NCBI RefSeq assembly: GCF_963675165.1
Contig: NC_087389.1
Span: 4,462,830-4,526,829, forward strand
Source of the DNA: Halichondria panicea
Lineage: Eukaryota > Porifera > Demospongiae > Suberitida > Halichondriidae
Direction of reading: 5' to 3'
DNA: 64,000 nt
Positions 17,228 through 58,404 of this stretch are shown here, piece by piece. The position numbers and the translations under genes are program-made. The notes under the pieces are model-generated. The model did not search any database. It saw only the letters and a program-made list of their open reading frames with translations, and was not told where the DNA came from. Every line of letters starts with the position of its first letter. The first letter of the stretch is position 1.

Positions 17228-18050
17228 TCAGAGATGGGGGGCTTCTCTCAATTTTCGTAAGTGAGCATGGTCGGTAAATACAACCTCCACTTTTTTACCG
17301 TCATCTCGACCAACATTGAGTGAGTCACAGATTTAATTTCTTGGAGCATTTTTTCCTCTTTTGAAACATGAGTTCTCTATATAGATCTCAAGGGTGCATA
17401 ATCATAATAAATTCTGTGTTACGTGGTGGTATAGCCTCGAGAAGCATGACCACCACATGCACCGGGGGACATTAAACCCCTTACCCCCACATTAAGCTCC
17501 TTATAATTATATAGTCTCATGAATCAGCCGCACCTTTGGACACCAAAGGTGCAGCTGATTCATGAGACTAATAATTATATACCCCCCACTGATTTGGCAA
17601 GGGTTCGTCATATGATTGTTTATGCAATTCAATGCAGCTCGCATAACACGTACAGCTTTAACACTTCTGGATGTATTCTGCTGAAGAGCGTGCACGTGTC
17701 TAAGAATTTTGGCTCCTTTGTCATCTATCTGGTTGCATCCTATAGTCCATAATTTGAGCAGAAAAAATTAATAATCATGCATGCATTATAATCTTATATC
17801 TCATTTCACTTACTGAATCCCAGTGAGTGTCTGTGTGGTATGTGTGACTCCGAACAGAGTGACTAGTTTTTCGAATCCTTTTTGGTGATGTAATCCCACA
17901 GCCAAAAACTCTAATACGTACAGTACAACAATTATACTTCATGCAGAGATTGCATAATGTCCCAACTTCACAAGTGAGCTTGTCTGCTTGGCAATCAGTG
18001 CATCTAGAATTTTGTGGAATTCTTGGTCTCCTATTGGAATCTTAGACAAG
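17228..18050 (-). pseudogene. relic of an NLR 3' end (four LRR/terminal exons)
   Basis: Co-linear with the last four exons of NLR-B (31015-31776). Readable pieces include a terminal exon ending at the stop complement 17228-17230, an LRR exon with EGAKLLxHALQQNTSRS homology, and an LRR exon starting at 18050 (LSKIPIG-type). Damage: the donor of the exon at 18050 has lost GTAAG (TGTCCC instead of TTACCCC), there is an insertion in the next exon, and the terminal exon's acceptor AG is gone. No CARD or NACHT exon lies upstream on this strand. A palindromic element is inserted at 17512-17570. Confidence 0.8.
17512..17570. mobile_element. 59-bp palindromic element, TAGTCTC subfamily
   Basis: Near-perfect inverted repeat from TAGTCTCATGAATCAGC to GCTGATTCATGAGACTA with a 3-bp centre. 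Flanked on both sides by the 9-bp direct repeat ATAATTATA (17503-17511 and 17571-17579), so it is an insertion rather than a terminator hairpin. Its ends match those of the element at 57532-57588. Confidence 0.85.
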
Positions 18051-18212
18051 CTGCATACATGCAAAGGAGTGGATGTGAAAATTAAACATTTTTGTTAAAA
18101 TTTTAGTGGTTGATTTGCCACTGCAATTAAGGTACGCATGCACGAGACTAGTGGGAACTCGATATTTCCAAGCATGGTGAAGTATATAGGGTAAGCCATT
18201 GTATATACCATA

Positions 18213-18305
18213 CTTAACCGTCGAACCGCCTATATGTTTTGATAGCTACATTTAGGCTAAACAAGGGGTGGGCGGATATTTGATATGGGCGGTTCGACGG
18301 TTAAG
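18213..18305. repeat. 93-bp foldback MITE with TA target duplication
   Basis: Terminal inverted repeats CTTAACCGTCGAACCGCC and GGCGGTTCGACGGTTAAG, flanked by TA on both sides. Confidence 0.75.
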
Positions 18306-18439
18306 TACGTTATAATTATATGTTCCTTGATAAGTGCTTATCATACAGAAATCATGCTACAACACTTGGAGACATAAGAATTTTGCTCTAGACCTTTCAT
18401 ATATAATCCGGCGAGAGCATGAAAGGGCATATGAAGATA

Positions 18440-18485
18440 TAGTTGGGCGGAGTCCAACCAAAGTTGGTTGGACTCCGCCCAACTA
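18440..18485. mobile_element. 46-bp palindromic element, TAGTTGGGCGG subfamily
   Basis: TAGTTGGGCGGAGTCCAACC then AAAG then the complement ending CCGCCCAACTA. Flanked by the 9-bp direct repeat ATGAAGATA (18431-18439 and 18486-18494). The first 13 bases match the left end of the 2168-bp helicase element at 55653. Confidence 0.85.
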
Positions 18486-18723
18486 ATGAAGATATACGCT
18501 TGTCTATAGGTATCGGCGTGAACTTCACTTACTTTGTCAACTATTTACTTTTGTCACTGCATGTGTTCAGACATTTAGAGAGCACAGAGAAGCTACAAAA
18601 ACTTTACACCGGCTTGCTACTTGTGTATAGTGCATTGTTTCTTCCTTCTGTATTACACAGATATCATAAACTAACTATATACAGTATACTGTTACTAGAT
18701 CTAAAGGCGACTTAGATTCCTGC

Positions 18724-18797
18724 TAGACTCGCAAGCCGTCACTGTTGTGCAGGCGAACAGTACTATACTGTTCGCCTGCAACAGTGACGGCTTGCAA
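18724..18797. repeat. degenerate palindromic element
   Basis: Starts TAGACTC, then a 30-bp-arm palindrome GCAAGCCGTCACTGTTG...CAACAGTGACGGCTTGC with one arm interrupted by a T. The right end lacks the GAGTCTA expected from the left. Imperfect direct repeats (GATTCCTGC versus CAATCCTGC) flank it. Probably an old member of the TAG-ended group. Confidence 0.5.
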
Positions 18798-19030: not shown

Positions 19031-19042
19031 GGGGAGTTTCCC
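19031..19042 (+). promoter_or_regulatory. NF-kappaB-like site upstream of NLR-A
   Basis: GGGGAGTTTCCC fits the kappaB consensus GGGRNNYYCC and lies about 72 bp before the NLR-A start codon. Comparable sites precede NLR-B, NLR-C and NLR-D at similar distance. Confidence 0.55.
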
Positions 19043-19112
19043 TACTTTCAGTTTGTTTGGCTAGCTTTGTGGTAGATTGTGTACACAGATCTAACTAACT
19101 GCTAGAGTAGTT

Positions 19113-22100
19113 ATGGCTACTACTACTAAACGTTTTTTTATGGTCCATCATGATGACTTTGAAAATCTTTTAAACCTGAATGAACTAGTCCCATTTCTAA
19201 ACAAGCAACAGCTTCTGACAAGTGGTGAAATGGAACAATTGATGTCGCTGAGTCGAACTAGACAAGATAAGATACGGGACCTAGTTAATATCATGTGCAT
19301 AAAAGGGGATCAAGCTCCCTCATTATTCATAAAGTGTGTTCGTGACGCAACAGAACACATTGCTCATTTTGATCTGACAAAAAAATTGGAGAGTTGGCTT
19401 CTAAAGAATTCTAAAACTGACACGTTAATTACAAGTTCTGGTTCTGAACCTACCTCCAGTACTCAACAACCTTCAAGTGAGCAGCAACCTAAATCTAGAG
19501 CCACCACAATCCAAGGTGATTGTAAGTGTCTATCTATATTAATGGAGTAAATATAAATTTAATGTGAATATATTCATAGTGCAAATCATCCAGTTACGAA
19601 TCTGATAGAAACCACTACAATGAAAGAAGCTTATACTGTATGGTAGAAATGTGAGTGGAAACGCGTAGCTGATTTAACTCATTTTATCATGGCAGTTTGA
19701 AACAGAATTCGAATTGAAGCTTGCAGGGTGGTGATCCAGGCGCTCTATCACTTTATTATAGGGTAGAGTATGGGTTTTATAATGCTTACATACAGCTGTG
19801 GTCAAGGTATAGAGATGTTAAATTCAACCTAAGTATACTGATTTCTGTTTTTACAGCTTTGAAAAGACAACAACACAATTCTGGCCAAAGTTTCGATTCG
19901 CTTTCTAAACGGCCGCGACTCTCCACTCGAAATGAAATGGTGGCTGAGGAAACTCCACTAGTACCTATTGAAGATCAGACATCATCCAGTAGCCTCCCTC
20001 AGGTTATCGATGTTCACCAAAGCCTAGGGGCAAATACCGCAGTAGCTGTCAGTACTTGTCAGCAAGAGAGCACACATCTGACTGTATTACAGGATTCCAT
20101 AGAGCAGGGAAAAATGATAAGTATCTCCTCAGGTACACACCAGATGGATGAAGAGGAGAGAACTTCATCAACTATTGGTGAGTATTTGATATAGCTAAAT
20201 ACATAAGTAGACATAAAATTTATGGATACGGAAAGCTTTTTAGCAATACTTTGTGTAGATATCACTTACCGTATATACTGGTGGATGTTTTAATTTGGCG
20301 ATTTGATTTACCGTTTATCGCCAAATTAAAAACTGTCAAATCAAAGTTTTCCGGTGGACACAATATCATTGTTGTAGTATAGTCACTCCTGAGACGCCAA
20401 ATTAAAAAACGCCGAGTTGTTTCAAATGATCCAAATATAAAATACCCGCCAAATTTTCCAGTTATACGGTATGTTATATCTCATGCAGGGAAAGAGACCA
20501 GATGTGGAAACTGACTGCATGTATACGTATTATTATGCATGCAGCTAGTTTATTAATTGAGCCTTTCTTACGTAAGTATACGTCTCTGTGTACTATAATA
20601 TGAGATTGCAAAATGTAGCTCACGAAAAAATACGTCATTTGGCATAAGTAAGTTTCTCGGAGACCTCTTGGTACAAACTTTTCATGATATTCTGCACTCA
20701 CTTTCCACACGACTAACTATATAGACTATAAATATGTTACTAGATCTACCCGGGGGAATAAAGCCAAAAACACCATCAAATAACTGTTTGGCTCTAAAGT
20801 ATGAAACATAATGGAGAAGTCAGATTCATTATGAAATACAGCCAATTCTTACACTCATCTAAGCAAAGAAATCCAGCGAATTAATGAAAGACCAAGCCTA
20901 GACAAGATTCTACAAAACAGTTTGTTATGTGGTGTATATCTAATGTGTGTGGTTAACTCGAGGCACACCGCCACGACCTGGGTTATAGTAGTCGGTCAGT
21001 CCGTGTTTCTGTTCGACTGTCGTTCTGTGTATTCTAAGGAGCACTGTGTTTGTATCATGGATAGCCTCAACACCACAAGGTATAAATTTGGAAGATCTTG
21101 ATTTAAAACTTTGCTTAATAAGCGAGCAAAAGCCGCTAAGAAGCTAAAAAGCTCGAACCTGCACGTTGGCCTAGATGTACACGCGGCTTTGACTCGAGGC
21201 TGTATACAGACTACGACTAAACCCAAAATTAAGGCCGAGGATTTGCACCAGTGCTCTAGTTCTAAAAATGAATTCCAAATAGTTCAGGGTCATAAGAGTA
21301 AACATCTAGGCCACAGACCACTTAGCAACCACTTAGCAGGTGGGAGTATAGCCTGCATTTAAAAGGTATCTCAGTAATTATGATCTACTATTATTTTAAT
21401 TAGCTTAAAATAGCTTTACGATAAACCGTTTATAATAATTATGAGCTAGATAAGCAGATATATAGAATGAGCTGGAAGTCCAGCTGAAACGCAGTAGTCA
21501 TTTCATGGCTCCAATATATTATACTGGATAGCTTTGGTACAGTCTACTGTAGTTCAACTATATTATATGCAGAGCCACTCGAAGATATATTACCGCCCCG
21601 ATCTTAACGTATGGAGAAATGGAAACTGCAATTTGTGGTATTAGCCGCCGCCTCCTCTAAAAATAACTATAGCGTCATAATTATTAAGTGCAGCAATGGT
21701 ATACATAATACGTATAGCTATGCACATAACCAATGTCCTGACATCAGTGCTTAAAAAAAAGCTTCTGAAAGCTCACAAGAGGCTGTTTTCCTAGCTCTGA
21801 CCGTACATATATCGATAGGCTTATTTTGTGAGAGTTTCTCGACCTGAAAAAAAACACTTCAAATAGCCCTCCAGTAAGAAGCATCGTATAAGAGCAAAAA
21901 CAAATGCAGAGCTAGAAATTATGAGTTTAGAGCAGTTTTAACTTGATGATCGCTCAAAGCTTTGAAGATTGATGACATTCAAATCACTATAGTTATCATT
22001 ATGCTTCAAACTGGCATTTATAGTTTCACAAAAATCATTACATGAGCAAACAGTTTACCGTAACCTTATAAATAGCAAGTCAAAATCAAGTTCATAGTAT

Positions 22101-25100
22101 AGGATGGAGTTATGCTTTTTGTAAGTTTTGCTCAAATTTGCAATTTACTTTCACAAGGCAGAGATTATCTCTCTGGCTCCACTTCTCCTATCTATACAGT
22201 GTACCAAAACAATTCTTCCATTATAACTTCTTCGTGCATGCGCAGTAACGTTAATAGCTCGTGGCTGCTTATGAGATAGCATAGGCCACGCCTGAGACAC
22301 CAAATTAAAAATTAAAAGTCGTTTAAATGGCTCATTCACTATATATTGCTAAATATAATACCCGCCAAATTTTTCAATTATTAATTATACGGTATAGTTT
22401 AATTAGCAGACCCCAAAATAAGGTCTAGCCAATTTCACCATACATAGTTGTATTGACCACGCCACAAATAGTGGTGCTATAAGTAGCTGATACTGTATAT
22501 AGTGGGTATATAAATGAAAGGTATAAATGTTCGTTGTTTTCGCGGATTAAGCATGTACCGCGAACATTTATACCCACAAATTTAATTTCGCATGCATACA
22601 TGCTGCAGAAAGGTGCTATTCCACGAAAATTAAATGTGCGAAAACCTTTCTAACGGTCATTCCGCGAAAGCTTATACCCTAGAAATACAGTGGAACCTCT
22701 CTATAACGGACACCTTTGGGGAACAATGTTTTGGCCTTTTTACAGAGGTGGCCTTTGTTGAGAGGTTGTTTTGTACACAAACTGTTCATTTGGGACCTGG
22801 GTGCCTGGCCGTTATATAGCAGCTGGCCTTTATTCGGAGGTGGTTGTTAACAGAGGTTCCACTGTATACCCGCTATACGGCCAGTGTTTTGAGTTTTGAA
22901 ACTGCACATCATGCAGCTGCAACTTGCTAGCTACAATAATTATAATTTGCAAATGTAATTACGGTATAACTGGTAATTTCCGGGCAAAATATTTTGTGGG
23001 TTTCGTGGTTGAACACTGGACCACGAATATTTTAACCACGATGAAGCGACCTTGACTACCTTTACCTACAGTGCAAGCAGCAACCACGAAAATAATATCC
23101 ACAACTGACTAAACTTAGAGCACTAAAGTGCACACCCTCGGCCGGCTGGTGACATGATTAAGAAACGATATAATGCACATGTAGTGATGTATGACTGAAC
23201 TTCATGCACAGTAACTCAGGGGCAATAAAACAGATGGCTGAGTTTTAGTGGTACATAGATATATGCACTGTGGATCACAGCAATGAAGCTTGCAGTCTCA
23301 GAGAAGTATGGCTCCTGGAGTAGGACCTAGCAGTCTGCTACAGAGACAGCACGCCAGACACAGTTCTAGCTTTCGATTTTAGCGACCCTTTTCCATTGTT
23401 CCTGGTACGGGATCACTTCAGCTGTAAATACATAGGGTGCCTCGAATAAAGGCTGTGTGTAGTTAGCTAGCTGCCAACGTGTAAGTTCAAGATTTTTAGC
23501 TTTCGCTCGTTTTTATTCGACAATGAAGCTTTAAAATCAAAATTTAAAACTACTACCTTGTTGTGTTTGAGGCTATCCATGGCATAAACACAGTGCTATC
23601 GCATCCAGGTGAGTAGACTCAGAATACACAGACAGACAGACAGACAGACTGACTGACTACTATAACCCGTGGCGCTGCGGCGCGCCTCGGGTTAATAATT
23701 ATTGCTCAACCACAAATATTTTTCCCCAAAAAATTACGATATGTATGTTATTTCACACATTGTTCCTCTAACCAATAGTCACCTACAGACTGTTTACAGA
23801 CTGTTTACACATACACAAGGTAGTGTATGTGCAATTTGCCAGATGCTTCCTCCCATATGAAACATTACACTTTCTTTATACAGGTTCTAGAACCGAAGAA
23901 AGCGATCGCTCACCAGAACAACCAAGCACCTCTCAATCTAACCTGCAATTTCGTCAGCCCCCACACGAATTTGGTCGGCAATACATACCTCCGTCACGTG
24001 ATGATCAAAGTCATTATTCATCACCCTTAGTACGTTCTAGTTCCACTAGCTCAGAACGACATTCAATAGATGAATCTCCTCTTCAATTATTTATTGAAAC
24101 TTTGAGAACCTCTTATGCAGATGAAAAGTTTTTCAAAAAATCTGCTGGTCTTAACAAACGAAAGATCGAATTCATTAATCTAGCACTTATCAAGAAGAAA
24201 GGAGTGAGCCCTGCAGATGCAGAGAATGATAAATTTCTGCAGAGCACATTACACGGCTCTATAGATGACATCATTAAGAAGAAGGAGGATATTGATTTGC
24301 AAGAAATTTTCAATTACGGCAAAAAAGGATCGAGGAAGCTCGTACTAGTCGAAGGGGCTCCTGGTGTTGGAAAGACAATGCTTGCTTTAAAAATATGTCA
24401 ACTATGGGCCAATAAAAATCTGCTAGATGAATACGATATGGTGCTCTTGGTAACCCTCAGAAGATTCCAGGGAAAATCGTTAGTGGAGTTGAGTGATCTG
24501 CTCATATACCTGCAAGGCCCCCTCCGTGCTGAGGCTACCAACGAGTTATTCAGATCACAAGGTGATAGAACTTTGTTCATTCTCGAAGGCTGGGACGAGT
24601 TGCCTCCTAAGCTACACAGAGAAGGCTCGATCTTTTTTGACATTGTCGATGGCAGTGTGTTACCGAAAGCTTCTGTGCTCGTAACTTCTCGTCCCACAGT
24701 GACCTCTGGCCTCTATGACTACATGGATGAACGGCATATTGAAGTGTTGGGTTTTAGCGCAAAGGAAATCACACAGTACGTACAACTTCATGGCGAAGAA
24801 ATGTCTGAAACGATTCACAGCCATCTCAACAAGTTTCCAAACCTCAAAGCATTGGCTCACATTCCGCTCACACTTTCCATAATTTGCCATGTGGCTAGAA
24901 AAGATTTAGCTTTGCCACATACCCTCACAAAGCTTTATAACCAGCACATCTGCAACACTCTTTTCCTAACCTTGAAGAAGTATTCGAGGTTCAGCTCCCT
25001 CCCTGGAGTTTCTTGCTTGGAAGAACTACCGGTTGAAGTTAGGGAAGTTTTCAATTCCCTTTGTACTTTGGCTCTGGACGGCTTCAAAGAGAAGAAGTTC

Positions 25101-28440: not shown

Positions 28441-28444
28441 TCTC

Positions 28445-29300: not shown

Positions 29301-30529
29301 CCACCGAACGAAACAGAGAGAGATCTGTTTGCCCTCGCTGCGAGGCTAGGCGGTTTAGGCATTATTATTCCCTCACAACAGTTGGATCAAGAGTTCAAGT
29401 CCTCCATGCTGGTCACTGCTCCCAGGGAGCTAACCCACTCACAAGACCCTGCATATCCCTACGAAGCTCTAACAAACCAGATATCAGCTAAAGCAGAGAT
29501 CCAGCGAGAAAGACACCAAAACGCAGATTTGAATGCCAATCGCCTCAGAGAGGTGCTAACACCTACTCTCAAGAAAGCCATGGATCTAGCAAAGGAAAAG
29601 GGCTCCTCAAGCTGGTTGACGACGTTGCCTCTGGAGGAGCATGGGTTCTGCCTACACAAAGACGCGTTTGTAGACGCTCTGGCCCTGAGATATGGATGGT
29701 GTCCGCCAAACACTGCTACAAACTGTGTCTGTGGTGCAAACTTCACTATCGAACATGCTCTCTCCTGCCCAAGAGGTGGATTCCCGTCGATATGCCATAA
29801 CGAGATCAGAGATCTAACTGCCACCCTAATGACGGAAGTCTGCAATGATGTGTGTGTGGAACCGAATCTTCAACCACTCCCCTTGGAGACCATGGCAAGA
29901 CGCACCGCCATTACCACCGATAACGCCCGACTAGACATCGCGGCAAACGGCTTCTGGGGAGGAAGACTGGAGAGAACCTTCGTAGATGTCAGAGTGTTTA
30001 ACCCTCACGCACCATCGAACAGGAACACAAGCCTGGAGCAGTGCTTCAGAAAACACGAACTAGAGAAGAAAAGAGCCTATGAGCAAAGAGTCAGGGAGGT
30101 GGAACATGCGTCCTTCACCCCCTTAGTGCTCTCCGCAAGTGGGGGACTAGGAAAAGAAGCAACAGTGTTCTATAAAAGATTGGCTTCCCTCCTAGCTGAG
30201 AAATGGGACCAACCATACCACCAGGTCATAAACTGGCTAAGATGCTCCCTATCATATAGTCTGCTCAGATCTGCAATACAATGTGTGCGAGGCTCCCGGT
30301 CCTCCCCCGTGGTCGCACCATCAAGACCATCCTACCAATGGATTTGGTGTCGGCCGAGGCACACTTGTGCCAAATGGACTAACAAGTATATTATATTTCC
30401 TTTTTGTATATTTTTCCTTTTTGTACTCTTTATTATTTATTTTGTCTAGATCAGTACCCTACATGTGTAACTTTATTTGTTGTATTTGAAAAGAAAGAAA
30501 AAATGTGTCCATGAAAAAAAAAAAAAAAA
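29300..30529 (+). mobile_element. 5'-truncated non-LTR retrotransposon (restriction-like endonuclease end)
   Basis: An open frame from about 29322 to 30449 encodes the C-terminal part of a retroelement polyprotein: a block CVCGANFTIEHALSC (C-x-C-x7-H-x3-C zinc knuckle), then ARLDIAANGFWGG and RTFVDVRVFNPHAPSN, which look like the D...D core of a restriction-like endonuclease, then a conserved RLASLLAEKWDQPY region. The reverse transcriptase domain itself is missing. A poly(A) run at 30513-30529 closes the element. AAGATGTAAC at 29292 and AGATGTTAC at 30529 may be the target duplication. Internal frame still open, so insertion is fairly recent or selected. Confidence 0.75.
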
Positions 30530-36063: not shown

Positions 36064-39000
36064 TCACAGATAATTGGTGGAGTTTCTTTTCTGCACCACT
36101 TGAGAGTGATGCTTGTAGTTGAGGTCTAACTTGTTCTCTGTGTCTCTCCCAGAGTTGATGGAGTCACAGATCTCTTGGAGCTTCTTCTTTCCTTCGTCAG
36201 TCACCTTTGTAGCCTCCATTCTGCATGAAACAATTACTTTAATTATTTCCGCAAATTTCACCAGACTACGTACTCATGTAATATGCAAACTTTTAAAGGA
36301 CTATACTCACTGTGACTGTACTGTAGTGTCCCCTTAAGCGTACACATGTACATGGAACTTAGCCTTTGAAAAGAGCCACGCAGCAATGTAAACTATAGCT
36401 ATTACTAGCATGCAAAGTAGACTGGAAACCACTCCCCTTCTCTCGGGAGAAAGGGACTGGCAAGCTGCCGTGTTGAGAGTTGTCCCAGTGCGTGAAGAAT
36501 GTCACGCTGCCACAAGAATGTAAACGTCACAATAGTCATGTGCCACCGCCCACACGCTATAACTATCACTGCACAAAATGTTATCGGCCTCAAGTATAAA
36601 GTACATCACCGGCGGTCTGTCATCGAGGTTGAAATAATATCACCCACGCATTACGCATTTTGTGGTTTGTTCTAATTTGCATTCCAACGGGACAACTCTC
36701 AACACGGCAACTTGCCAGTCCCCAGAGCCGGAGTGGTTTCCAGTCTACATGCAAAGTACGTATACGGTATACTCACAGAACTTGCTTGACTGAATTGGAG
36801 CTGTTCCTTTTCAAAGCCTCTCCCACTAGTTCAGCACCCTCGTCTCCGAGATGATTGCACCCCAGTCTGTGAGGAAAAACAACCAAATATTGACTCCACT
36901 GGCTTCTTTGATTTCAAAGCTAGGGTGCATAATGGAAGCACAGCAGTGGACTGTTGTACAGTTTGCTACCCAGTACCTTGACACCGTACGTATTAGTGTC
37001 TCTAAAATGTATAAGTTCATGGTCATCACGCAGACCTCGGTATGTGGTATGCTATAATTATTATAATTGTGGCCGCTTACTGAATTCCGACAAAAGTTTC
37101 TGTGACTGAAAACAGTTCCATGAGTTTCTTGAGCCCCTTTGGTGTGACATCACATCCAAACACCCTGTACAAAGTTTTAATTGACCAAAATAATTATGAT
37201 GAGTCATCAATTCATGCAGTTTCTACACTTTATAAGCCTTTACTTATTTAACTTTACTTACCCCAACTTTTTGAGAGATCCTTTACGTTTGACGATCAGT
37301 GCTTCAAGTACTCGTACAAAACCAACATCTCCAATTGGATTCTTTGACAAACTGCATGACACCAAAATAATGGTGGCTGCAATGATAATGAAACAGTTCA
37401 CGGCTTACTCTATCAGAATAAGGCTGCTGCTCTTCTCAATAATAGTAGCCACCAGATGACAGTCATCAGCTACCAAATCATTCCGATCAAGTCTAGAGTG
37501 CGTGGCAAATGAACATTAATCCAAGAAAAAATATAATCACGTACTCAGAAAGTTTGAGTGGGTGTACGTACAAATTACCTTAGTACTTCAAGAGTTTGGT
37601 TGACGGGAGCCATTTGGGCTAGAGCAGTAAGACCGACTGAAGTCATATCTGTTTTCGTCAGTCTACGTATAGACGAAGTAATTAAATAACATGAATTATA
37701 CATGATAAATCACTTACGATAATTCAGTGAGAGCCTTGTTGTATCTGTTGTCTAGTGCCTGCGCTATCCTCGTAACACCATGGCAACCAAATTGTTCAAA
37801 TCCGATGCTGTATAGACACAATTTGTGAGTAGACATACCTATAGAAGAATGCTTTCCAAATCATGATAGTTACGGAAACTTACTAGAGTTCTTCTATTGT
37901 GCTGTTTGCTCTCAAGACATCAGCTAGTTCAAAAGCACCATCTTTAGTCAGCTCACAGCTTGAGAAACTGTTATAAACATACTCGATATAATTATAGACC
38001 ATATTCACCGGCTTAAAGAAAACAGATAAAAGTACATGTATAATTATACTTACATATTCACTGTGCATCATAAATGCCTGGCTGATATAAAATTATTATA
38101 ACTAACTAATAGCACTTAACGTACTGAAGTGATTTGGTTGTTGCATGCGACTGCTTAAGAGCTCTTGTTAGAGTCCTCATGCCCTCGTCTCCAAACGGAT
38201 TGGACGACAATCTGTAGAGGATATTATCAGTGACTATGGTTATTATTATACATTCGCTGATCTGGAATTTAAATACTTACATGTAGTATAGACATAAATT
38301 TGCTAGCTGGACGAGGCATATGTGTATAGTGAACTTCTCAATAAGGACAGTTTGCAATTGGAAACAGTCAGTTTGTCCTAATGTATAGAGACGAGGTCCT
38401 TTATTAAGAGGCTAAATCTCTATAGTAGCTGTCCAATAGAGAGGGTGTCCCTAGCTTGCTTGTAAGGTTTACTACAATTAATACACATGCACACATAAGC
38501 TCACATGAGTGAGTGTAGCTGCATCTTGCTGTTGATCATTTCCGCTAGGTGGCAGACAGACACGGCTCGTATCCGGTTCTGAGTCAAACTGCATGCACGT
38601 AAAAGGTAAATTTAAAAAGGATCACAGTTGAATACAATGCATTGTCTTGATAAAGTACACGAGTGTCGCAGCTACATTTATTGCCATACTACTAAATTGT
38701 GTCAGGATACAATTTTGAGTAGCAAACATAAACCATTCACATCATTACACTACGGACTACGGACTGGCTAATAATTATCCACTCACTCCAATCTCTTGAT
38801 GGTGAATCCGAGTACTCCATGGGCCTCAATGTGGGTCAAAAGAGACGTCTTGAATATCCTCAGTCCATCGTCCCCCATATTGCACCCCCTCAACTCGACC
38901 TGCCAATCCCCCCCGGCCGATGTGATCATGTGAGCAGCACAGAGACAGTCGGTTGTGTTGAGAAGCATATTACCGAGGTTTAGAACATAGAACATCTTTT

Positions 39001-44700: not shown

Positions 44701-47700
44701 TGATAAATCTGCTCGAATCCTGCTGCAACGGCCATAACAGGTGCATTCAATAGGCCGTAGCCATCAAAGGCATTTGGTTTGAGACCAACTCTCTGCAAAT
44801 CCTCTTTACTGTACACAAACTTCTTCTCTTTGAAGCCGTCCAGAGCCAAAGTACATAGAGAATTGATCACGCTTCTAACTTCGACCGGTAGTTCTTCCAA
44901 GCAAGAAATTCCAGAGAGGGACTTGAACGTTATGTGCCTCTTCAAGGTTAGGAAAAGAGTGTTACAGATGTGCTGACGATAAAGCTCTGTGAGGGTATGC
45001 GGCAAAGCTGAATCTTTTCGAGCCACGTGGCAGATAATGGAAAGAGTGAGCGGGATGTGGGCCAACGCTTTGAGGTTCGGAAACTTGTTGAGATGGCTAA
45101 GAACCGTTTCAGACATATCCCCGCCATGAAGTTGTACGTACTGTGTGATTTCCTTAGTGCTGAAGCCCAATACCTCGATATGTCGTTCATCCATGTATTC
45201 ATAGAGGTCAGAGGTCACTGTGGGACGAGAGGTTACAAGTACAGATGCTTTCGGTAAAATATTGCCCTCGACAATGTCAAAAAAGAATGAACCTTCTTCA
45301 CGTAACGTAGGAGGCAACTCGTCCCAGCCTTCGAGAATGAACAAACTTCTTTCCCCTTGAGATCTCAATAACTCTTCGGTAGCATCATCGAGAAGAGAGC
45401 CTTGCAGGTATATGAGCAGATCACTCAAATCCACTGACGGTTTTCGCTGGTATCTTCTGAGGGTTACCAAGAGCACCATATCGTATTCATCTAGCAGATC
45501 TTTATTGGCCCATAGTTGACACATGTGTAGGGCAAGCATTGTCTTTCCAACACCAGGAGCCCCTTCGACTAGTACGAGCTTCCTCGATCCTTTTTTACCG
45601 TAAGTGAAAATTCCTTGCAACTTAATGTCTTCCTTTTTCTTCTTGATGATGTCATCCACAGAGCCGTGTAATGTACTTTGCAGAAATTCATCATTCTCTG
45701 CATCTGCAGCACTTATTCCTTTCTTCTTGACGAGTGCTAGATTAATAAATTTGATAGTTCCTTTGTTAATACCAGCAGATTTGTTGAAGAACTTTTCATC
45801 TGCATAAGAGGTTCTCAAAGTTTTAATGAGCACTTGAAGAGGAGATTCATCTGTTGAATGTCCTTCTGAGCGAGTGGAACTAGAACGTACTAAGGGTGAT
45901 GAATAACGACTTTGATCATCACCTGACGGAGGTATGTATTGCCGGCCAAATTCGTGTGGGGGCTGACGAAATTGCAGGTTAGATTGAGAGGTGCTTGGTT
46001 GTTCTGGTAAGCGATCGTTTTCTTCCGTTCTAGAACCTGTATAAAGAAAGTATAATATTGAAGGTGTATAGATAATTGAAGTATATTATGCGTACATCAT
46101 GAAATGAAAATGTTGATTCGTATACAATGTTTATACCTGTTAGCTTGTCATGTGATCTGTCATGTCTAGGCCGGCGGAGAGGGGGTGGTTGGAGATCTGT
46201 TGGCATGGTAACGTCAGATTGAGCCCTTCTTTTAACTCCTATCGTGAGCAATAGTAAAAAGAGATTCATATAAAACATACACATAGTGTACTAAACCTAA
46301 ACGTGGAGTTAGCAGAAATGAATCAGTATTACGACCACAACTGTTGTACAAAAGTACACTTTATGGATTGTTTATCGCATCTATGTATAATTATATTCAT
46401 TGTGTTAAATGCCAGCTACCGTACTTCTTCTAAAAGAGGCGCCCTTCTAACTAGTGTTCAAGCTTGCGCTGTGCTAATGCCTCTCGCCATGTTTTTGCTT
46501 TTGCTCAAAAGTAGTTTCTATAATGAATTTTATATTAAAGTTAGCGTATCTATATAAAGTCACTGAGAAGAAAAGACTTATTTACATGCATCTATTGTTG
46601 TTATTTATTGTATTATGTGGCTTACCAGGACCTCAAGAAAGAAGAAAATTGATTCTTCCAGGATCTGTAGTTCAGTGTATATAATATCTAACCTGTGTAC
46701 ATGCATATTGTTATCTATATTGTTATATGGTAGTGTTTTGTGGCTTACCAGGCCCTCAAGACAAAGATGATTCTGCCAGGAGGATCTGGATCTGGATCTT
46801 GGATACTATTTTCTCACACATGGGGAATGAGCGCGCATGCGCATTACATCCACAGGAATAATTAAAGACAAAGAGATCAATTTCACAAATGGCTACTGCT
46901 AGCTAGCTGTTTTAACAGATATTTTCTGAGTATTGTAGCTAACAAAAAGCTAGCGCTTTAGTGCAAGGCCAACTCATATGTTGAAAGATTCTGAAGACTA
47001 GAGACTGCAACAGCCTTCAATGTGAGTCAAACTAGCCATAACTCGAGAAAGAAGCTTTAGTTTGCTAATCCACGAATCAAAATCCAAGAGAACGTGGCTA
47101 GAAGCCTATAGAAGCTGTTAGCTTTCGTCGCATTGCAACTGTTGAGCAGTTACAGCTGGAACAGACACACACAGTCAGCTTTACCGTATCCCTCGTGCGG
47201 CTACGCCTCAAGGCATAATTATGCGCCAGGACTGAAAAGTAATTTTGAGTCTCCATAATTATTATAATACACAAGGCTCAGCAGAATTATTCATGCAATG
47301 ACCTATAGCCAGGCTTTGCCTAACCTCGAGACCAGTATTTTAATCGGCCTGGATTCGAGGCTAGGCTTCGCCTAGCTAACACAATGACCTTGAATTGTGT
47401 TGTCTCTAGGTGCGGGTTGCTTCTCACTTGACGATTTGCTGGGTTGTGGAAAACGAGACATAGGTTCAGAACCAGAACTTGTACCTAACGTGTCGGTTGC
47501 AGAATTATTTATATTAAGCCAATCCTCCAATTTATCTGCCAGATCGGAATGAGGCAAGTGTTCCGCTGCATCACGAACACACTTTGTGAATAATGAAGGA
47601 GCTCGATCTCCTTTTATGCACATGATTTTAACTAGTTCCAGTATCTTCTCTTGTCTAGTTAGACTCTTCAACATCAATTTTTCCATTTCATTACTGGTCA

Positions 47701-48526: not shown

Positions 48527-50560
48527 TCAGCACCCGCGGTGCTTTCATTAGAATATGCACCTGATTAAGTTGTAAAATATAAAAATATGTAAAATATAAA
48601 AATATACTATACACAATGAATGGGGTGGTCTTTCACACATAGAAGAAAAGGTTACACGTGGTACATACACATAACTATCACAGATAATTGGTGGAGTTTC
48701 TCTTCTGCATCACTTGAGAGTGGTGCTTGTAGTTGAGGTCTAACTTGTTCTCTGTGTCTCTCCCAGAGTTGATGGAGTCACAGATCCTCTTGGAGCTTCT
48801 TCTTTCCTTCGTCAGTCACCTTTGTAGCCTCCATTCTGCATGAAACAATTACCTTAATTATTTCCGCAAATTTCACCAGACTATGTACTCATGCAATATG
48901 CAAACTTTTTAAGGACCATGCACTCACTGTGACTGTACTGTAGTGTCCCCTTAAGCGTACACATGCATACGGAACTTGGCCAATAATAGCTTTGAAAAGA
49001 GCCACACAGCATTGAAAACTGGCATGCAAAGTACGTATACGTGTACTGTATACTCACAGAACTTGATTGACTGAATTGGAGCTGTTCCTTTTCAAAGCCT
49101 CTCCCACTAGTTCAGCACCCTCCGATATGATTGCACCCCAGTCTGTGAGGAACAACAACCAAATATTGATAAGGAACTCATCAATCGGCTCCGCTGGCTT
49201 CTTTGATTTCAAAGCTAGCGTGCATATATGGAAGCATAGTAGTGGACTGTTATGGTATGATTATACTATAATTATAATTGTGGCCGCTTACTGAATTCCG
49301 ACAAAAGTTTCTGTGACTGAAACAGTTCCACGAGTTTCTTGAGCCCCTTTGGTGTGACATCACATCCAAACACCCTGTACAAAGTTTTAATAGACCAATT
49401 ATGACGAGTCATCAATTCATGCAGTTACTACACTTCACAAGCCCTTAACTTACATAACTTTACTTACCCCAACTTTTTGAGAGATCGTTCAGGTTTAGCG
49501 ATCAATGCTTCAAGTACTCGCACAAAATCAGCATCTCCAATCGGATTCTTTGACAAACTGCATGACACCAAAATAATGGTGGTTGCAATGATAAATGAAA
49601 CAGTCACGACTTTATCAGAATAAGACTACTGCTCTTCTCAATAATAGTAGCCACCAGATGACAGTCATCAGCTCCCAAATCATTCCGATCAAGTCTAGAG
49701 TGAAAATATAACGTGGCAAATGAACATAAATCCAAGAAAAAATATAATCGCATACTCAAAAAGTTTGAGTGACGTTACCTTAGTACTTCAAGAGTTTGGT
49801 TGACGGGAGCCATTTGGGCTAGAGCAGTAAGACCGGCTGAAGTCATATCTGTTTTCGTCAGTCTACATATAGACGAAGTAATTAAATAACATGAATTATA
49901 AATGTATAAATCACTTACGATAATTCAGTGAGAGTCTTGTTGTATCTGTTGTCTAGTGCCTGCGCTATCCTCGTAACACCATGGCAACCAAATTGTTCAA
50001 ATCCGATGCTGTATGGACGAATTGTGTGAGTAGAAACGTACCTATAGAAGAATGCTTTCCAAATCATGATATAGTTATGGAACCTTACTAGAGTTCTTTT
50101 ATTGTGATGTTTGCTCTCAAGACATCAGCTAGTTCAAAAGCACCATCTTTAGTCAGCTCACAGCTTGAGAAACTGTTAAAAACAAGTGATAATTATATAG
50201 ACTATTACCGGCTTAAAGAAAACGGATAGAAGTACACATATTCGTGGTTTTACATTGTACAACATATGTAAATTCCTGGCTGATATAAAATTAATTAATG
50301 TAGCGTACTGGAGTGACTTGGTTGTTGCGTGCGGCTGTTTGAGACCTGCTGTGAGAGTCCTCATGCCCTCGTCTCCAAACGGATTGGACGACAAACTGTA
50401 GAGGGTATTATCGTGACTATAATATGGTTATTAAACATTCACTGATCTGGAATAGATTTACATATACATGTAAAGTAGTAAGTATTTCAAATTTGCTAGC
50501 TAGACGAGGCACACATGTATAGTGAAACCTCTCAATAAAGGACACTTTACACTTACTATA

Positions 50561-50999
50561 CCGTATAGCGGGTATATTTCGAGGGTATAAATGTTCGCGG
50601 TTTTCGCGGATTGAGCCTGTACTGCGAAAATTTATACCCACGAAATGTATGAATAGTAGGCGTGTTCAGTATTATTGACCACACCTATCGACACAAAAAG
50701 GAATCAAGAGACAAGGACGCCGGTATAGCCAGCTAGATTGCTCTATTATACGTCTACGTCCAGATTGTTTTGTACTGGTGGTATCCGCTGACCATGGCCT
50801 GCACAGCAAACGTTCTGCTAGAGGTGGAGGACATAGTGCCTCACCGATTCTATTTTATACAGGCTAGGCCTGGATTCGAGGCTAACGGTGTGGAGGTACA
50901 GCTGCATGTTGATGTGCGCATGCGCCAAAAAGCTGGAACTCAGACCACGAAAATAAAATCCGGGAAAATGTACACCCTCGAAATATACCCGCTATACGG
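50561..50999. mobile_element. 439-bp MITE of the CCGTATA family, in NLR-E
   Basis: Inverted ends CCGTATAGCGGGTATATTTC and GAAATATACCCGCTATACGG (about 27 bp), flanked by TA. A 78-codon frame at 50770-51006 ends inside the right repeat and is not convincing as a gene. Confidence 0.85.
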
Positions 51000-51041
51000 T
51001 ATATAGAGAGACGAGGTCCTTTATTAGCTAAAACTCTAGTA

Positions 51042-51244
51042 CTGTATAGCTGGTTATTTTCGAGGCATGAAATTTTTACCCATAAACACGAAAATTTAGT
51101 GTCGCGAAAATTGGTTTACATCGGTATTAGTGTAGGGGTGTGGTCATTTGAACCCGCTATCCTCGAAAATAAACTCCCTAAAAATGTTCTGTTTGGGCAA
51201 TCTGCAGTGAAAATTTAGTGCCTCGAAAATAAACCGCTATACGG
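51042..51244. repeat. 203-bp MITE of the CCGTATA family, in NLR-E
   Basis: Ends CTGTATAGCTGGTTATTTTC and GAAAATAAACCGCTATACGG, flanked by TA. Shares the TCGAGGC and CTCGAAAAT blocks with its neighbour at 50561. Confidence 0.75.
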
Positions 51245-53756
51245 TAGTTCACATGACTGTCATTAAAATAGAGAGGGTGTCGTACTACAATTAATACACA
51301 CACAAGCTCACATGAGTGAGTGCAGCTGCATCTTGCTGTTGATCATGTCCGCTAGGTGGCAAACAGACATGGCTCGTATCCGGTTCTGAGTCAAACTGTA
51401 GGTAAAAGGTAGCTATAGTAAAAGAGGATCACAGATGAATACAATGTACAGACAATGATGTACATGTAAGAGTGTCGAAGCTACATTGACATACTACTTT
51501 AATTGTGTCCAATTTTAAGGATTCACTTTGGGTATAGTAACATAAACCATTCACATCATTACACCACCACTGACTACCTAATAAGTCTATACACTCACTC
51601 CAATCTCTTGATGGTGAATCCGAGTACTCCATGGGCCTCAATGTGGGTCAAAAGAGACGTCTTGAATATCCTCAGTCCATCGTCCCCCATATTGCACCCC
51701 CTCAACTCGACATGCCAATCCCCCCCGGCCGATGTGATCATGTGAGCAGCACAGAGACAGTCGGTTGTGCTGAGAAGCATGTTACCAAGGTTTAGAACAT
51801 GGAACATCTTTTCCGCAACTTTCTTGCTGATAGCAGGGTTGTCAGCTTCGTACAAACAGTGTAGAAGAAAGATTTGATCTCGATTGGCCTTCCCAGTTTC
51901 AGATATGATCAATTCTTTGAAAAATTCGTTCTCGAGCCTTGTAATCCCTGAGAAAAATTTCCAAATGTTTTGAAACTGCTAATCATTTCGGAACTCTCTC
52001 AGAAGTGAAACTCGTTTATTATCAACCAGATTTTGAATTCCATAGGCTGCGAGAAACTCTTGAATTGAGAGATGATTGAACTGATAAATCTGCTCGAATC
52101 CTGCTGCAACGGCCATAACAGGTGCATTCAATAGGCCGTAGCCATCAAAGGCATTTGAATCGAGACCAACAGCCTGCAAATCTTCTTTGCTGTACACGAA
52201 CTTCTTCTCTTTGAAGCCGTCCAGAGCCAAAGTACAAAGGGAATTGATCACGCTTCTAACTTCGACCGGTAGTTCTTCCAAGCAAGAAACTCCAGAGAGG
52301 GACTTGAACGTTACGTGCTTCTTCAAGGTTAGGAAAAGAGTGTTGCAGATGTGCTGACGATAAAGCTCTGTGAGGGTATGCGGCAAAGCTAAATCTTTTC
52401 GAGCCACGTGGCAGATAATGGAAAGAGTGAGCGGGATGTGGGCCAACGCTTTGAGGTTCGGAAACTTGTTGAGATGGCTAAGAACAGTTTCAGACATATC
52501 CCCGCCATGAAGTTGTACGTACTGTGTGATTTCTTTAGTACTGAAGCCCAATACCTCGATATGTCGTTCATCCATGTAATCATAGAGGTCAGAGGTCACT
52601 GTGGGACGAGAGGTTACAAGTACAGATGCTTTCGGTAAAATATTGCCCTCGACAATGTCAAAAAAGAATGAACCTTCTTCACGTAACGTAGGAGGCAACT
52701 CGTCCCAGCCTTCGAGAATGAACAAACTTCTTTCCCCTTGAGATCTCAATAACTCTTCGGTAGCCTCAGCAAGGAGGGGGCCTTGCAGGTATATGAGCAG
52801 ATCACTCAACTCCACTGACGGTTTTCGCTGGTATCTTCTGAGGGTTACCAAGAGCACCATATCGTATTCATCTAGCAGATCGTTATTGGCCCATAGTTGA
52901 CACATGTGTAGGGCAAGCATTGTCTTTCCAACACCAGGAGCCCCTTCGACTAGTACGAGCTTCCTCGATCCTTCTTTACCGTAAGTGAAAATTCCTTGCA
53001 AATTAATGTCTTCCTTTTTCTTCTTGATGATGTCATCCACAGAGCCGTGTAATGTACTTTGCAGAAATTCATCATTCTCTGCGTCTGCAGCACTTATTCC
53101 TTTCTTCTTGACGAGTGCTAGATTAATAAATTTGATAGTTCCTTTGTTAATACCAGGAGATTTGTTAAAGAACTTTTCATCTGCGTAAGAGGTTCTCAAA
53201 GTTTTAATGAGCACTTGAAGAGGAGATTCATCTATTGAATGTCGTTCTGAGCGAGTGAAACTAGAACGTACTAAGGGTGATGAATAATGACTTTGATCAT
53301 CACGTGACGGAGGTATGTATTGCCGGCCAAATTCGTGTGGGGGCTGACAAAATTGCAGGTTAGATTGAGAGGTGCTTAGTTGTTCTGGTGAGCGATCGCT
53401 TTCTTCCATTCTAGAACCTGTGTAAAGAAAGTGTAATATTGAAGGTGCATAGATAATTGAAGTATATTATGCGTACATCGTGAAATGAAAATGTTGATTC
53501 GTATAGAATGTTTATACCTATTAGCTTGTCATGTGATCTGTCAGGTCTAGGCCGGCGGAGAGGGGGAGGTTGGAGATCTGTTGGCACAGTGACGTTAGAT
53601 TGAGCCCCTCTTTTAACTCCTATTGTGAGCAATAATAAAAGAAATTCATATAAAAACACACACACAGTGTACCTGCACCCACAAATTTACAGGGTATAAT
53701 TTAGGGTTACATATTAATTATGCATCTGCCCCATGAATAACAAGCATATCTATATC

Positions 53757-53788
53757 TAGCCCGATTCCAGGCCCTGGAATCGAGGCTA
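53757..53788. mobile_element. 32-bp palindromic element in NLR-E intron
   Basis: TAGCCCGATTCCAGG then C then CCTGGAATCGAGGCTA, with arms differing at one base. Flanked by ATCTATATC (53748-53756) and ATCTATATT (53789-53797). The right end CGAGGCTA matches that of the element at 47321-47363. Smallest member seen. Confidence 0.75.
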
Positions 53789-55636: not shown

Positions 55637-55857
55637 CAGTGCAGTGTCTCGGTAGTTGGGCGGAGCCCGACCGTCCCTGACGGGAGGTCGGGGGACACGC
55701 TTATATAGGATTTGTACTTGTGTATTATGTAATACTGCTTGGAGCATCATGAATATAATCATTTTAAGTGGGTGTTAAACGCAATATGCACCGCACTGCA
55801 CCACACTGGCTGGCACTGAAAACAACATGACTTTGCTACTAAATTAAAAGAGCAAGA

Positions 55858-56102
55858 ATGGCCCAAGTGCTACAATGTTTTGGATGTGAGGATGAGCTAT
55901 CAAGGCCTGGTAACAGGAGAGCTCTTGATGGTCCAGCTGGAAAGGAAGTGTTGGACCTGTGGACAATGCTACTGGAGAATGAGGAAGAACAGATGTGTGC
56001 TGATGTCGACATTAACAGTATTGTAAATGGCAGTGATAAAAACAGATTGCCCAAAATGTGCAGGAAATGTTTCGGTAGATATAGCAGCTTTCTTGAAGCA
56101 CA
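55858..56102 (+). CDS. cysteine-pair (ZAD/zinc-ribbon-like) first exon inside the helicase element
   Basis: ATG at 55858; MAQVLQCFGCEDELSR ... LPKMCRKCFGRYSSFLEAQ, then a plausible donor GTAATA. Two CxxC pairs about 60 residues apart with an aromatic after the second resemble N-terminal zinc-binding modules of the ZAD type. No later exon was found in the element. It is transcribed towards the helicase gene. Could be a remnant. Function unknown. Confidence 0.45.
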
Positions 56103-56154
56103 GGTAATAATGAAAATAAAATTTGTAATTAGCTGAAAGAAGTAACTAAGTCTT

Positions 56155-57639
56155 AGGTCACATTGTCCACATAAACATGACTTAGAACAAATATCACAGC
56201 ACAAGCAATTGAAACCGAGATCAACATGTTTGTAATTGTCAATATTTCGGAAAAGACTATCCCTTCTACAATCTGTAGTGTTGAAGTTTGAAGCATATTC
56301 TTTAATCTCATTATTAACTTGATGGTAAATTCTTGCCTTTAAAAGGGTTACACGTGATGGTTTACCATCTCGACCTGCTCTACCAGTCTCTTGTACATAG
56401 CTACTGATATCGTCTGACAGGCCAACATGAATGATTTACCGAATGTTGGGACAATCAACACCCATACCAAATGCCATAGTAGCTACAACAATGCGAAGAT
56501 TGCCATCACCCTTAAATAAACGAATGATTTCAGATTTATGGGCTGGATCAGTGACACTTGTAAACATGTCCACGGGGCGAAATTCAGGAAGATCAGGTGC
56601 ATCATCAGGATTTGTGAATGCAGCTCCAAGGTAATCCTTAAAGAAGAGGTACATGTCACCACACACTCCAAAAGAACGTCCATATATGATTGTTTTGGGA
56701 AACTTGTTTCTCTCGATTACCAATTTCTGGGCCAAGTTTTGGAATGTCTCTGGTATACTTTTGAACAATCCAACAGCAAATTTGGGATTACTGGGACTCT
56801 CGTAATGACAAATGGGTTTCTTAGGCCAACAATACGAGAAATAAATGAAATGTCACTTCGGGTAGCTGTTGCTGTTAGCGCCATCACATGAACTGATGTT
56901 GGAATGAGGCTGCGCACTTCTCTAATTCTCAACAGCATTTGCCTGAAAGTCTCACCCCTGCAATAATATTATTGGTACACATGTTAATGTTAATAAAAAA
57001 CAATGAGTCAAATACATACCATTTCTTCACACAATGAGCTTCATCGATTATCAAAGCCTTGAGTCTATTAGCATACATATCTCCCCCCAGAAGTCTTCTC
57101 CAATGCTTCTTGCTGATGATCATTTCAGGTGTAAAGAATACTAGCTGATACTTTCCATGGAAGATCGCATCCATTGTAGCTGCATCAGACATCTCGCCCG
57201 AGACATATGTGCTAGAGATGCCTTTAGAACAATAGATGGCTACCTATATATAGAATAAAAGCATCCAGCTTAGAATGATCTAGTTACGTGTAAACAGCTC
57301 ATATGCACATGTACGTATAATTATATGTATGTTCTATCTAGCCTTACATACCTGATCATGAATGATGGCCAGCAGAGGAGTGACTACTACTACAATAGAA
57401 TAACCTTTCTCCTTCTCCAATATTTTGTCAAATGCTGCAGGCAAACAAGCATAGCAAAGGCTCTTTCAAAATTCAGTAGGCAATACAGCAAGACATCTCT
57501 GCCTCTCAGAAAAGAAGTGACTACTTCCAAGTAGTCTCGAATACCCGCCTCAACCTAAAATTTAGGTTGAGGCGGGTATTCGAGACTAACTTCCAAGCTC
57601 ATTAGCAGCTTCTGTGACAGCTTGTGTAACTTTCTCCAT
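56155..57639 (-). pseudogene. RecQ-like DNA helicase pseudogene
   Basis: ATG at 57637-57639; exons about 57352-57639, 57020-57243, and 56957 down to about 56155. Recognisable RecQ motifs: KSLCYACLPAAFD after motif I, VVVTPLLAIIHDQ (Ia), YQLVFFTPEM, LIIDEAHCVKKW (II, DEAH), MALTATATRSD (III), VVATMAFGMGVDCPNIR (V), YVQETGRAGRDG (VI), and a C-terminal cysteine cluster CLCCDICSKSCLCGQC. Lesions: TGA at 57466-57468 where the Walker A Gly before Lys-Ser should be, a 57-bp palindromic insertion at 57532-57588, a frameshift near 56800 (RNPFVI then CHYESPSNPKF), and a TAA directly after CPNIR. RecQ enzymes are 3'-5' DNA helicases; this copy cannot work. Confidence 0.88.
57532..57588. mobile_element. 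57-bp palindromic element nested in the helicase pseudogene
   Basis: Perfect palindrome apart from its central base, from TAGTCTCGAATACCCGCC to GGCGGGTATTCGAGACTA. Flanked by the 9-bp direct repeat ACTTCCAAG (57523-57531, 57589-57597). Excising the element and one repeat rejoins the helicase frame ELGS|SHFF. Confidence 0.93.
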
Positions 57640-58113
57640 TTTGCTCAAGGCAGCTCCGCCCAGCTGCACACCCACCTAGCTAAGTGGGTGTTAACCAACC
57701 ACTTGCAATACTGCAATCTGATTGGGCTGCACTCCTCAGTGCAGCAGTACAAATCCTATACATGTATAAGCGTGTCACCCGGCCACCCGTTGGGAACGGG
57801 TGCCGGGCTCCGCCCAGCTAGTGTCTCGGTATGGGGATCTGGGGGGGGGAAACCCTGGTTTTTCCCCTCTGCGCATGAAGCGCATGCACAGTGGATCAAT
57901 TGTATATGGTGGGGAAATGGCCTGATGAGACTCAAACTCAGACTGCTTTGCGAGGGATGTAGAGTGGCTGAAAGATTAGGAGAGAAGCTGGGAACATGTG
58001 GTGGAACTAGACTATGTAGACTGCAAGCACTGAAAAGCCAATGTGGTATAGGTATGTATGAGCAGGTATGAGAGAAACAACCAACTAAATAGGCGACTCT
58101 ACACCGTCTCTAC

Positions 58114-58404
58114 TAGCTGGGCGTGGCTCGACCGTCTCCTGACGGGAGGTCGGGTTGCAAGCCTATCTGGGATTTGTTCTAGCACCACTATAGTGGCGCC
58201 CTATCAGATTGCAGCATTTTTCACGTGCTTGGCTACACTTCCGTTTGCATCTAGTTGCGAAACGGCATGCAGTATGCTGTGGTTTATCCACGTCATCATG
58301 TCGGTTAACACCCATGGCAGTGTTACATAATGCTGCAGAACAAATCCCAGATAGGCTTGCAACCCGACCTCCCGTCAGGGAGACGGTCGGGCCACGCCCA
58401 ACTA
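58114..58404. mobile_element. 291-bp inverted-repeat element, TAG(C/T)TGGGCG subfamily
   Basis: Terminal inverted repeats of about 67 bp: TAGCTGGGCGTGGCTCGACC ... GGGATTTGTTCT on the left, the complement ending GGCCACGCCCAACTA on the right. Flanked by the 9-bp direct repeat CGTCTCTAC (58105-58113, 58405-58413). Each arm includes the hairpin CCGTCTCCTGACGGGAGG. About 155 bp of non-coding interior. A short relative of the helicase element 290 bp away. Confidence 0.93.

Follow-up and report, generated by a model that had tools for sequence, protein, structure and literature searches.

TAG...CTA mobile elements with 9-bp target duplications in the sponge Halichondria panicea, and short hairpins that may be scars of their excision

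Introduction

When the P element is excised, its enzyme produces 3' tails of 17 nt that consist of P sequence. Many such sites, in flies that lack Rad51, heal to an 8-bp duplication, at most 17 nt of one element end, AT, TA or filler, at most 17 nt of the opposite end and the duplication, and others lose more; DmBlm is involved in repair by copying (synthesis-dependent strand annealing) (all from excerpts of PMC2895639). In the present study we analyzed 64,000 nucleotides of the sponge Halichondria panicea (GCF_963675165.1, contig NC_087389.1; C13:4462830-4526829 in our numbering, here referred to as "the window"), in which an earlier note, made from the sequence alone, had proposed a family of mobile elements with TAG...CTA ends and 9-bp target-site duplications, the shortest of them being hairpins. 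These hairpins resemble the P-element scars described in the same excerpts (PMC2895639), as both consist of a duplication, limited arms of terminal repeat joined by microhomology or filler, and the duplication again, and the end joining of long 3' tails that gives the P-element scars may also give the hairpins. They differ in that the arms reach 36 nt here instead of 17, the duplication is 9 rather than 8 bp and the ends are TAG...CTA rather than CATGATG. Moreover, the P-element scars come from a repair-mutant assay, whereas the TAG...CTA hairpins come from a natural genome.

Other described systems share some of these features. Among Mutator-like and foldback elements, the target duplication is 8-10 bp in Tm1, 8 or 9 bp in Muta1 and 8-10 bp in Tetris, according to partial texts on these elements, which share with the TAG...CTA elements the 9-bp duplication, long inverted ends and many copies without transposase. 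In general, the duplication of 8-10 bp (mostly 9) of Mutator and Mutator-like elements (MULEs) agrees with that of the TAG...CTA elements; however, no MULE domain matches lie inside nine long TAG...CTA spans. For the mosquito MULE Muta1, part of PMC5225508 states that excision is mostly precise if the donor has its duplication, that at most 13 bp of the repeat are occasionally left, in constructs without the donor duplication only, and that the transposase was suggested to cut outside the repeat. In comparison, as much as 36 nt of either end is retained in the hairpins, if they are scars, and precise excisions would leave nothing countable. Galileo, a foldback-like member of the P superfamily with a P-type transposase, also has long inverted ends and many copies made of ends plus spacer, but its duplication is 7 or 8 bp with the consensus GTATTAC (partial sources), whereas the TAG...CTA elements duplicate 9 bp, with 29 different 9-mers and no clear consensus. 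Miniature inverted-repeat transposable elements (MITEs) are similar to our ~600-, 291- and 330-bp members, which are short, lack recognised coding and have inverted ends and a fixed duplication, and dissimilar to the 32-69 bp hairpins, which lack a shared interior and have many different junctions. Repetitive hairpin elements of sponge mitochondria are likewise short hairpin repeats proposed to be mobile, and their authors say that for sponges the data are too few to speculate on a mechanism (PMC2800124). We set them aside, since the TAG...CTA hairpins are chromosomal, in an assembly of 131 Mb, and have 9-bp duplications.

Results

Eight insertions in the window

The earlier note had listed eight insertions, and all eight coordinate pairs proved correct (Table 1). 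Seven have TAG...CTA termini and the one at 47321 has TAA...CTA; the 9-bp flanking direct repeats are identical in six and match at 8/9 positions at 47321 and 53757. The earlier note had also described each as an inverted repeat along much or the whole of its length. This stands for 57532, 18440 and 17512 and falls for the other five, as 47321 pairs poorly, 53757 pairs with a bulge and the 330-, 291- and 2168-bp members have inverted repeats at their ends only. In folding, three of the five short members form near-perfect stems. Several members have relatives: one of the 17512 hairpin, with a different centre, lies at L010:1592-1652; the arms of 18440 recur with two other centres at four places of C1 (at most two mismatches); the 3' arm of 47321, compared by eye, resembles the 3' end of a 600-bp element (L024:86-685); and the ends of the 291-bp element are about 80% like those of the 2168-bp element.

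Empty sites and target choice

Insertion is proven by empty sites, here meaning paralogous places in the same genome that hold the target once, which we read for three hairpins and one longer element. First, all six fetched sister copies of the 2168-bp element carry a single ACTTCCAAG and no insert where the 57532 hairpin lies. Besides the window's own copy, the 40 scored of 452 candidates include 22 near-full-length ones (95-98%), and 20 of them align as 1-1879 + 1932-2168, skipping the hairpin, with the other two nearly so. Second, the 65-bp hairpin of L022 has an empty site in L005, and third, the 53-bp hairpin of L024 has one in L004. Fourth, the 330-bp element has empty paralogues at window 42119-42127 (7/9 identical) and 49023-49031 (exact).

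The duplication is exactly 9 bp in six of the eight window members, 11 of 15 hairpin loci and 8 of 10 longer copies, with one 8-bp and one 10-bp case off this length. No clear target consensus appeared in 29 insertions, which have 29 different 9-mers; these sites were chosen for an exact 9-bp repeat, and the element with a 10-bp duplication was left out.

Controls within the window and across the genome

The assembly has 131 Mb in 39 contigs, the first 17 each above 5 Mb, and from each of these 17 we took an unselected 10-kb stretch at 1.0 Mb (L001-L017; 170 kb, or 234 kb together with the window). A strict scan (exact direct repeat of k bases around an inverted repeat of at least 13/14, k from 5 to 13) found five units at k = 9 in the window, all TAG...CTA, and 0-4 at each other k; in the unselected 170 kb, all three exact k = 9 units were TAG...CTA. 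In the 234 kb, an exact 9-bp repeat flanks 5 of 17 short TAG...CTA hairpins, and a repeat of at least 8/9 flanks 2 of 464 hairpins with other terminal triplets (Fisher P = 6e-7, a guide only, as three of the five are window members from the earlier note, two are unselected, and a single tandem array of L015 accounts for 10 of the 17). A lax scan of the same 234 kb (9-bp repeat at 8/9, ends at least 11/14, units up to 9.99 kb) gave 10 TAG units against a mean of 2.2 for the other 63 triplets; TGT...ACA (71) and ACA...TGT (30), possibly simple repeats, both exceeded TAG.

The pattern TAGTCTCGA-N6..55-TCGAGACTA, whose total length of at most 73 bp limits the sum of the arms and not a single arm, occurs 89 times genome-wide versus once for the reversed control. 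We examined 15 of these loci. The TAGTCTCGAATACC/TAGTCTCGAACACC type has an exact 9-bp repeat in 11/11 loci, three of which share one flank, leaving nine independent sites, and the TAGTCTCGAGGCCA type has the repeat in 0/4. The four TAGTCTCGAGGCCA hairpins (36-47 bp; L020, L027, L029 and L032) sit at the same spot, with the same flanks, of one larger repeat, and an apparent tandem array of ~90 bp adjoins them.

Longer elements with the same ends

The end TAGTCTCGAATACCCGCCTCAAC is present 109 times in forward and 98 times in reverse orientation genome-wide, with 0 for the control. Among 100 of these 207 ends there are 36 end pairs: 10 span 50-67 bp, none spans 73-471 bp, 25 span 472-6029 bp (mostly ~600) and one spans 19523 bp. 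The 5071- and 19523-bp pairings are probably false, and the left end of the former belongs to a 53-bp hairpin. Ten longer copies of the TAGTCTCGAATACC subfamily (472-6029 bp) were read at both ends; eight have an exact 9-bp repeat, one an 8/9 repeat and one, by eye, an 8-bp repeat. With ends and duplication shared by longer elements and with empty sites at hand, the proposal of one clan of mobile elements is upheld.

Judged by their sequences, the hairpins are ends-only pieces of these longer elements. The TAGTCTCGAATACC hairpins equal the first 13-36 nt of the longer element from each side, and the inverted repeat itself runs to ~50 nt in L047, the sole ~600-bp copy read whole. Moreover, a 1085-bp element has two unlike ends, both of which are retained in the hairpins of L002 (43 bp) and L024 (56 bp). 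Loose candidate counts reach 787 places for the 1107-bp family and 722 for the 1085-bp family (40 scored each). The 1085- and 1107-bp families are MITEs in being short and non-coding, with inverted ends, a fixed duplication and a shared interior, and the ~600-bp class is so by common size and ends (one copy read whole); the 32-69 bp hairpins are not. Two copies of the 1107-bp family, C5:6556046-6557267 and C1:10410272-10412481, apparently received a related unit at one shared point of their terminal repeat, with an overlap at repeat positions ~52-67, suggesting a self-insertion hot spot (coordinates only).

Junctions and the arm limit

We analyzed the junctions of 27 TAGTCTCGAATACC-subfamily hairpins, namely 26 pattern loci and window 57532. 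The loci come from 50 of the 89 pattern loci, 33 of which begin TAGTCTCGAATA; the remaining 17 (16 TAGTCTCGAGGCC, one TAGTCTCGAACACC) are not in the set. Seven TAGTCTCGAATA loci were left out: C1:13673358, which has the same flank as C1:11622360, and, for their other inner sequence, C3:1423428, C3:3799365, C5:1096448, C5:1127702, C7:4925809 and C7:4949835. None of the seven has an arm above 36 nt.

As a result, we obtained about 20 kinds of junction in the 27 hairpins. The arms measure 13-36 nt, and 0 of 54 exceed 36 nt, though in L047 the repeat reaches ~50 nt; with endpoints spread uniformly over 12-50 nt, this would have P = 6e-6 for 20 kinds. Seven hairpins have one arm of exactly 36 nt, joined via the last bases of the tail, through TTGAG/CTCAA in four loci (53 bp) and AG/CT in three (66 bp). 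Annealing through the final bases of a 3' tail that stops at nt 36 (...GCTTGAG) would be expected to give both recurrent kinds. Three further loci (60 bp) are joined through the self-complementary AAGCTT. Microhomology is absent in 13 loci, nine of them with 1-10 nt assigned to neither arm, and amounts to 1-2 bp in seven, 5 bp in four and 6 bp in three. Microhomology of at least 5 bp is thus found in 7/27 loci against 3.0% expected from random joins (P = 1e-5), a per-locus figure that assumes independent sites, with flanks read for some recurrent copies only. The 38 hairpins with both 17-nt ends intact measure 44-69 bp, which is also the range that the pattern admits, so that these lengths carry no information on longer hairpins.

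Search for a transposase, and the helicase gene

Of the full-length autonomous element with the same ends that the earlier note had suggested looking for, no copy was read, and exon-by-exon profile searches (lower bounds) gave no transposase inside nine long element spans. PF21787 (P-type transposase) has 46 genome matches, PF10551 (MULE transposase) 31 and PF20700 ("Mutator") 26, with 0 inside the nine spans; the nearest P-type match lies 3.6 kb outside one of them. In 1 kb taken from the middle of the 6029-bp copy, no long open frame is present. In eight scanned proteins (seven of the 55 frames of at least 170 aa of L001-L032 and one window frame) no DNA-transposon transposase was seen, and in viral contigs the 23-nt end had 0 matches and protein P0002 no relative. 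Eight equal-scoring P-type RNase H domain matches lie at C1:5068183, C1:8778506, C1:14868934, C2:1950133, C3:5694494, C4:2927553, C9:703865 and C12:3402884, five of them in 570-aa frames, and may represent a recently spread P-like family. Moreover, L023:269-1351 is a tyrosine-recombinase-like frame, and L015:4398-8252 is a retrotransposon polyprotein frame of 1285 aa.

Several minus-strand frames of the 2168-bp element contain parts of a helicase gene. The frame 55839..56435 contains a QETGRAGRDG motif and a Cys-rich tail, which we take to be the C-terminal part of a RecQ-type helicase. It has 85 genome matches, some in open frames of 290-396 aa, and nine database relatives, eight with precomputed PF00271, and has no Pfam match of its own at 1e-3. 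The 1085-bp element has a DEAD-like piece (20.2 bits vs the cut-off of 26). Relatives of the 2168-bp element spread over 5-9 kb at C1:9779770, C4:5638869 and C3:4732536, so larger relatives or nested copies exist. KolobokH, a Kolobok with a RecQ helicase, was considered and rejected, since its target is TTAA (partial text of PMC9587614) and the duplications here are varied 9-mers.

Table 1. Coordinates (window positions) of the TAG...CTA insertions and associated features
Feature	Position	Strand	Details
Target duplication of 17512, left copy	17503..17511		9 bp; right copy 17571-17579
59-bp hairpin remnant, TAGTCTCATGAATCAGC subfamily	17512..17570		exact ATAATTATA flanks; 27/29 paired; stem -29.2 kcal/mol, z -13.3
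46-bp hairpin remnant, TAGTTGGGCGGAG subfamily	18440..18485		exact ATGAAGATA flanks; 22/23 paired
330-bp non-autonomous element	36418..36747		exact CATGCAAAG flanks; ~69-bp inverted ends at 78%
43-bp ends-only remnant	47321..47363		flanks GGCTTTGCC/GGCTTCGCC, 8/9 identical
32-bp ends-only remnant, TAGCCTCGATTCCAGGCC-type ends	53757..53788		flanks ATCTATATC/ATCTATATT, 8/9 identical; ends compared; fold -12.7 kcal/mol
2168-bp element with RecQ-type helicase gene pieces	55653..57820	-	exact GTGTCTCGG flanks
Open frame, RecQ-type helicase C-terminal likeness in first ~100 residues	55839..56435	-	QETGRAGRDG motif; Cys-rich tail
Open frame, weak Helicase_C match	56439..56852	-	PF00271 E = 1.9e-4, 22.1 bits, below 23.5-bit cut-off
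57-bp hairpin remnant nested in 2168-bp element	57532..57588		exact ACTTCCAAG flanks; 28/28 paired
291-bp non-autonomous element	58114..58404		exact CGTCTCTAC flanks; 79-bp inverted ends at 92%

Other features of the window

The window carries NACHT and CARD genes. Alike long frames lie on both strands at 19095-25703, 33094-35749, 38783-40708, 44214-46085 and 51979-53466, with TAG...CTA insertions among them; the frame at 23772 matches NACHT and NOD2_WH, the one at 19095 matches CARD, and the remaining frames were judged alike by eye. On the minus strand, a coding-like tandem repeat lies at 4258-5314, where the open frames are made up of copies of one peptide unit (28 protein letters). Further inverted repeats at 50557-51246 and 62770-63165, several with TACCGTATAGCGGG-like ends, probably belong to another element family. 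A 382-aa open frame at 29301-30449 has a Cys/His-rich ...HALSCPRGGFPS... stretch and no Pfam match at 1e-3, and may belong to a mobile element.

Discussion

We consider it somewhat probable that the TAG...CTA elements are cut-and-paste transposons that insert with a 9-bp duplication and whose long staggered excision leaves hairpin scars. Insertion, the empty sites, the common ends, the junction spectrum and, in one subfamily, the arm limit form its basis. The inserted forms would be the longer copies, from 291 bp to several kb, and the 32-69 bp hairpins would be the scars. First, a longer copy would insert, whereby the 9-bp target duplication is made. Second, we infer that a transposase would excise it in place, with one strand cut flush at the element and the other about 36 nt inward, and each flank would keep a 3' tail of terminal-repeat sequence. 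Third, because both tails have the same sequence, annealing would be restricted to words for which the opposite tail offers a complement. End joining there, accompanied by trimming or a short fill, would then give the duplication, two short arms and the duplication. The junction spectrum and the 36-nt limit would fit a long-stagger excision of the P type. As Mutator is suggested by the 9-bp target stagger and P by the scars, our claim is that the system, by analogy, probably works like P excision, and not that it belongs to the P superfamily.

Several observations weigh against this explanation. No site was found to hold the full element in one of its copies and the hairpin in a second, and the duplication, mostly 9 bp, departs from the 7-8 bp of the P superfamily. 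Counted by junction kind, microhomology of at least 5 bp is found in 2/20, with no excess (P = 0.12). The 66-bp junction, with no more than 2 bp of microhomology, occurs on three contigs (flanks read for one), and the 38 hairpins with intact ends include eight of 66 bp, five of them by coordinates only. Moreover, C5:6557094-6557203 of the 1107-bp family looks, by coordinates only, like a hairpin with 55-bp arms, which would break a universal limit of 36 nt; this limit was tested in a single subfamily, with a pattern that restricts the total length to 73 bp.

Alternatively, the hairpins could arise in place without a special cut, if inverted ends pair during replication or repair, or if gap repair aborts, and the interior is lost. 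DNA transposons are known to suffer internal deletions through abortive gap repair, and junctions within the repeat, microhomology or filler and an intact duplication would all be explained. In this case, however, sizes and endpoints should spread over the ~50-nt repeat and the interior, whereas no endpoint lies beyond 36 nt and the pairs listed include none of 73-471 bp; we therefore regard this alternative as unlikely.

The hairpins could also be mobile themselves, moved in trans by the transposase of the clan, perhaps as extruded hairpins or cruciforms, and duplicating 9 bp. The earlier note had favoured such transposition, as folded DNA, for the palindromes of 32-59 bp. Exact 9-bp duplications at all nine independent sites of one type (0/4 loci of the other), the clean empty sites of three hairpins, the recurrence of the 60-, 53- and 66-bp junctions across contigs and the near-perfect stems of three of the five short window members speak for it. 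However, about 20 junction kinds in 27 loci are unlike the spread of a few masters, the longer copies are mostly ~600 bp, two of the three recurrent kinds have the longest possible microhomology and no arm exceeds 36 nt. Formation in place is simpler, since the hairpins are, by sequence, ends-only pieces with many junction kinds, the look of end joining and arms of at most 36 nt, and transposition of the hairpins themselves seems to us rather improbable and not the best reading.

Chance coincidence of many palindromes with many short direct repeats is ruled out for practical purposes: hairpins do occur with other terminal triplets, and TGT and ACA units outnumber TAG in the laxest scan, but the strict scan, the pattern against its control, the exact repeats at fetched loci and the contrast between TAG and other-triplet hairpins speak against it, and the empty sites refute it for four insertions. 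RNA-mediated spread was likewise rejected, since no tail was seen and a duplication fixed at 9 bp argues against it.

If excision does leave the hairpins as scars, the responsible enzyme could, we tentatively suggest, be an undescribed transposase that makes a 9-bp target duplication and donor 3' tails of about 36 nt, twice as long as those of the P element, and the RecQ-type gene may steer repair to copying, the hairpins being end-joined failures. DmBlm is a RecQ-family helicase, and a RecQ-type helicase cannot move DNA alone. No transposase was found beside the RecQ-type gene, and its part in donor-site repair is only an idea. To our knowledge, the combination of a long stagger at the donor with one of 9 bp at the target would be a new mechanism among eukaryotic transposases, and we found no report of hairpin scars of this kind in nuclear genomes in the titles and abstract openings of the papers that our searches listed. 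Very roughly extrapolated from two in the unselected 170 kb, such hairpins may number on the order of a thousand or more genome-wide.

If this explanation is true, the transposition of a 50-bp hairpin is no longer a puzzle, as the hairpin need not transpose. Each short perfect palindrome flanked by a 9-bp repeat could be read as the trace of one excision event. The limit on the arms of these palindromes would locate the cut of the transposase, and their junctions would show the end-joining habits of the host germline, from sequence alone.

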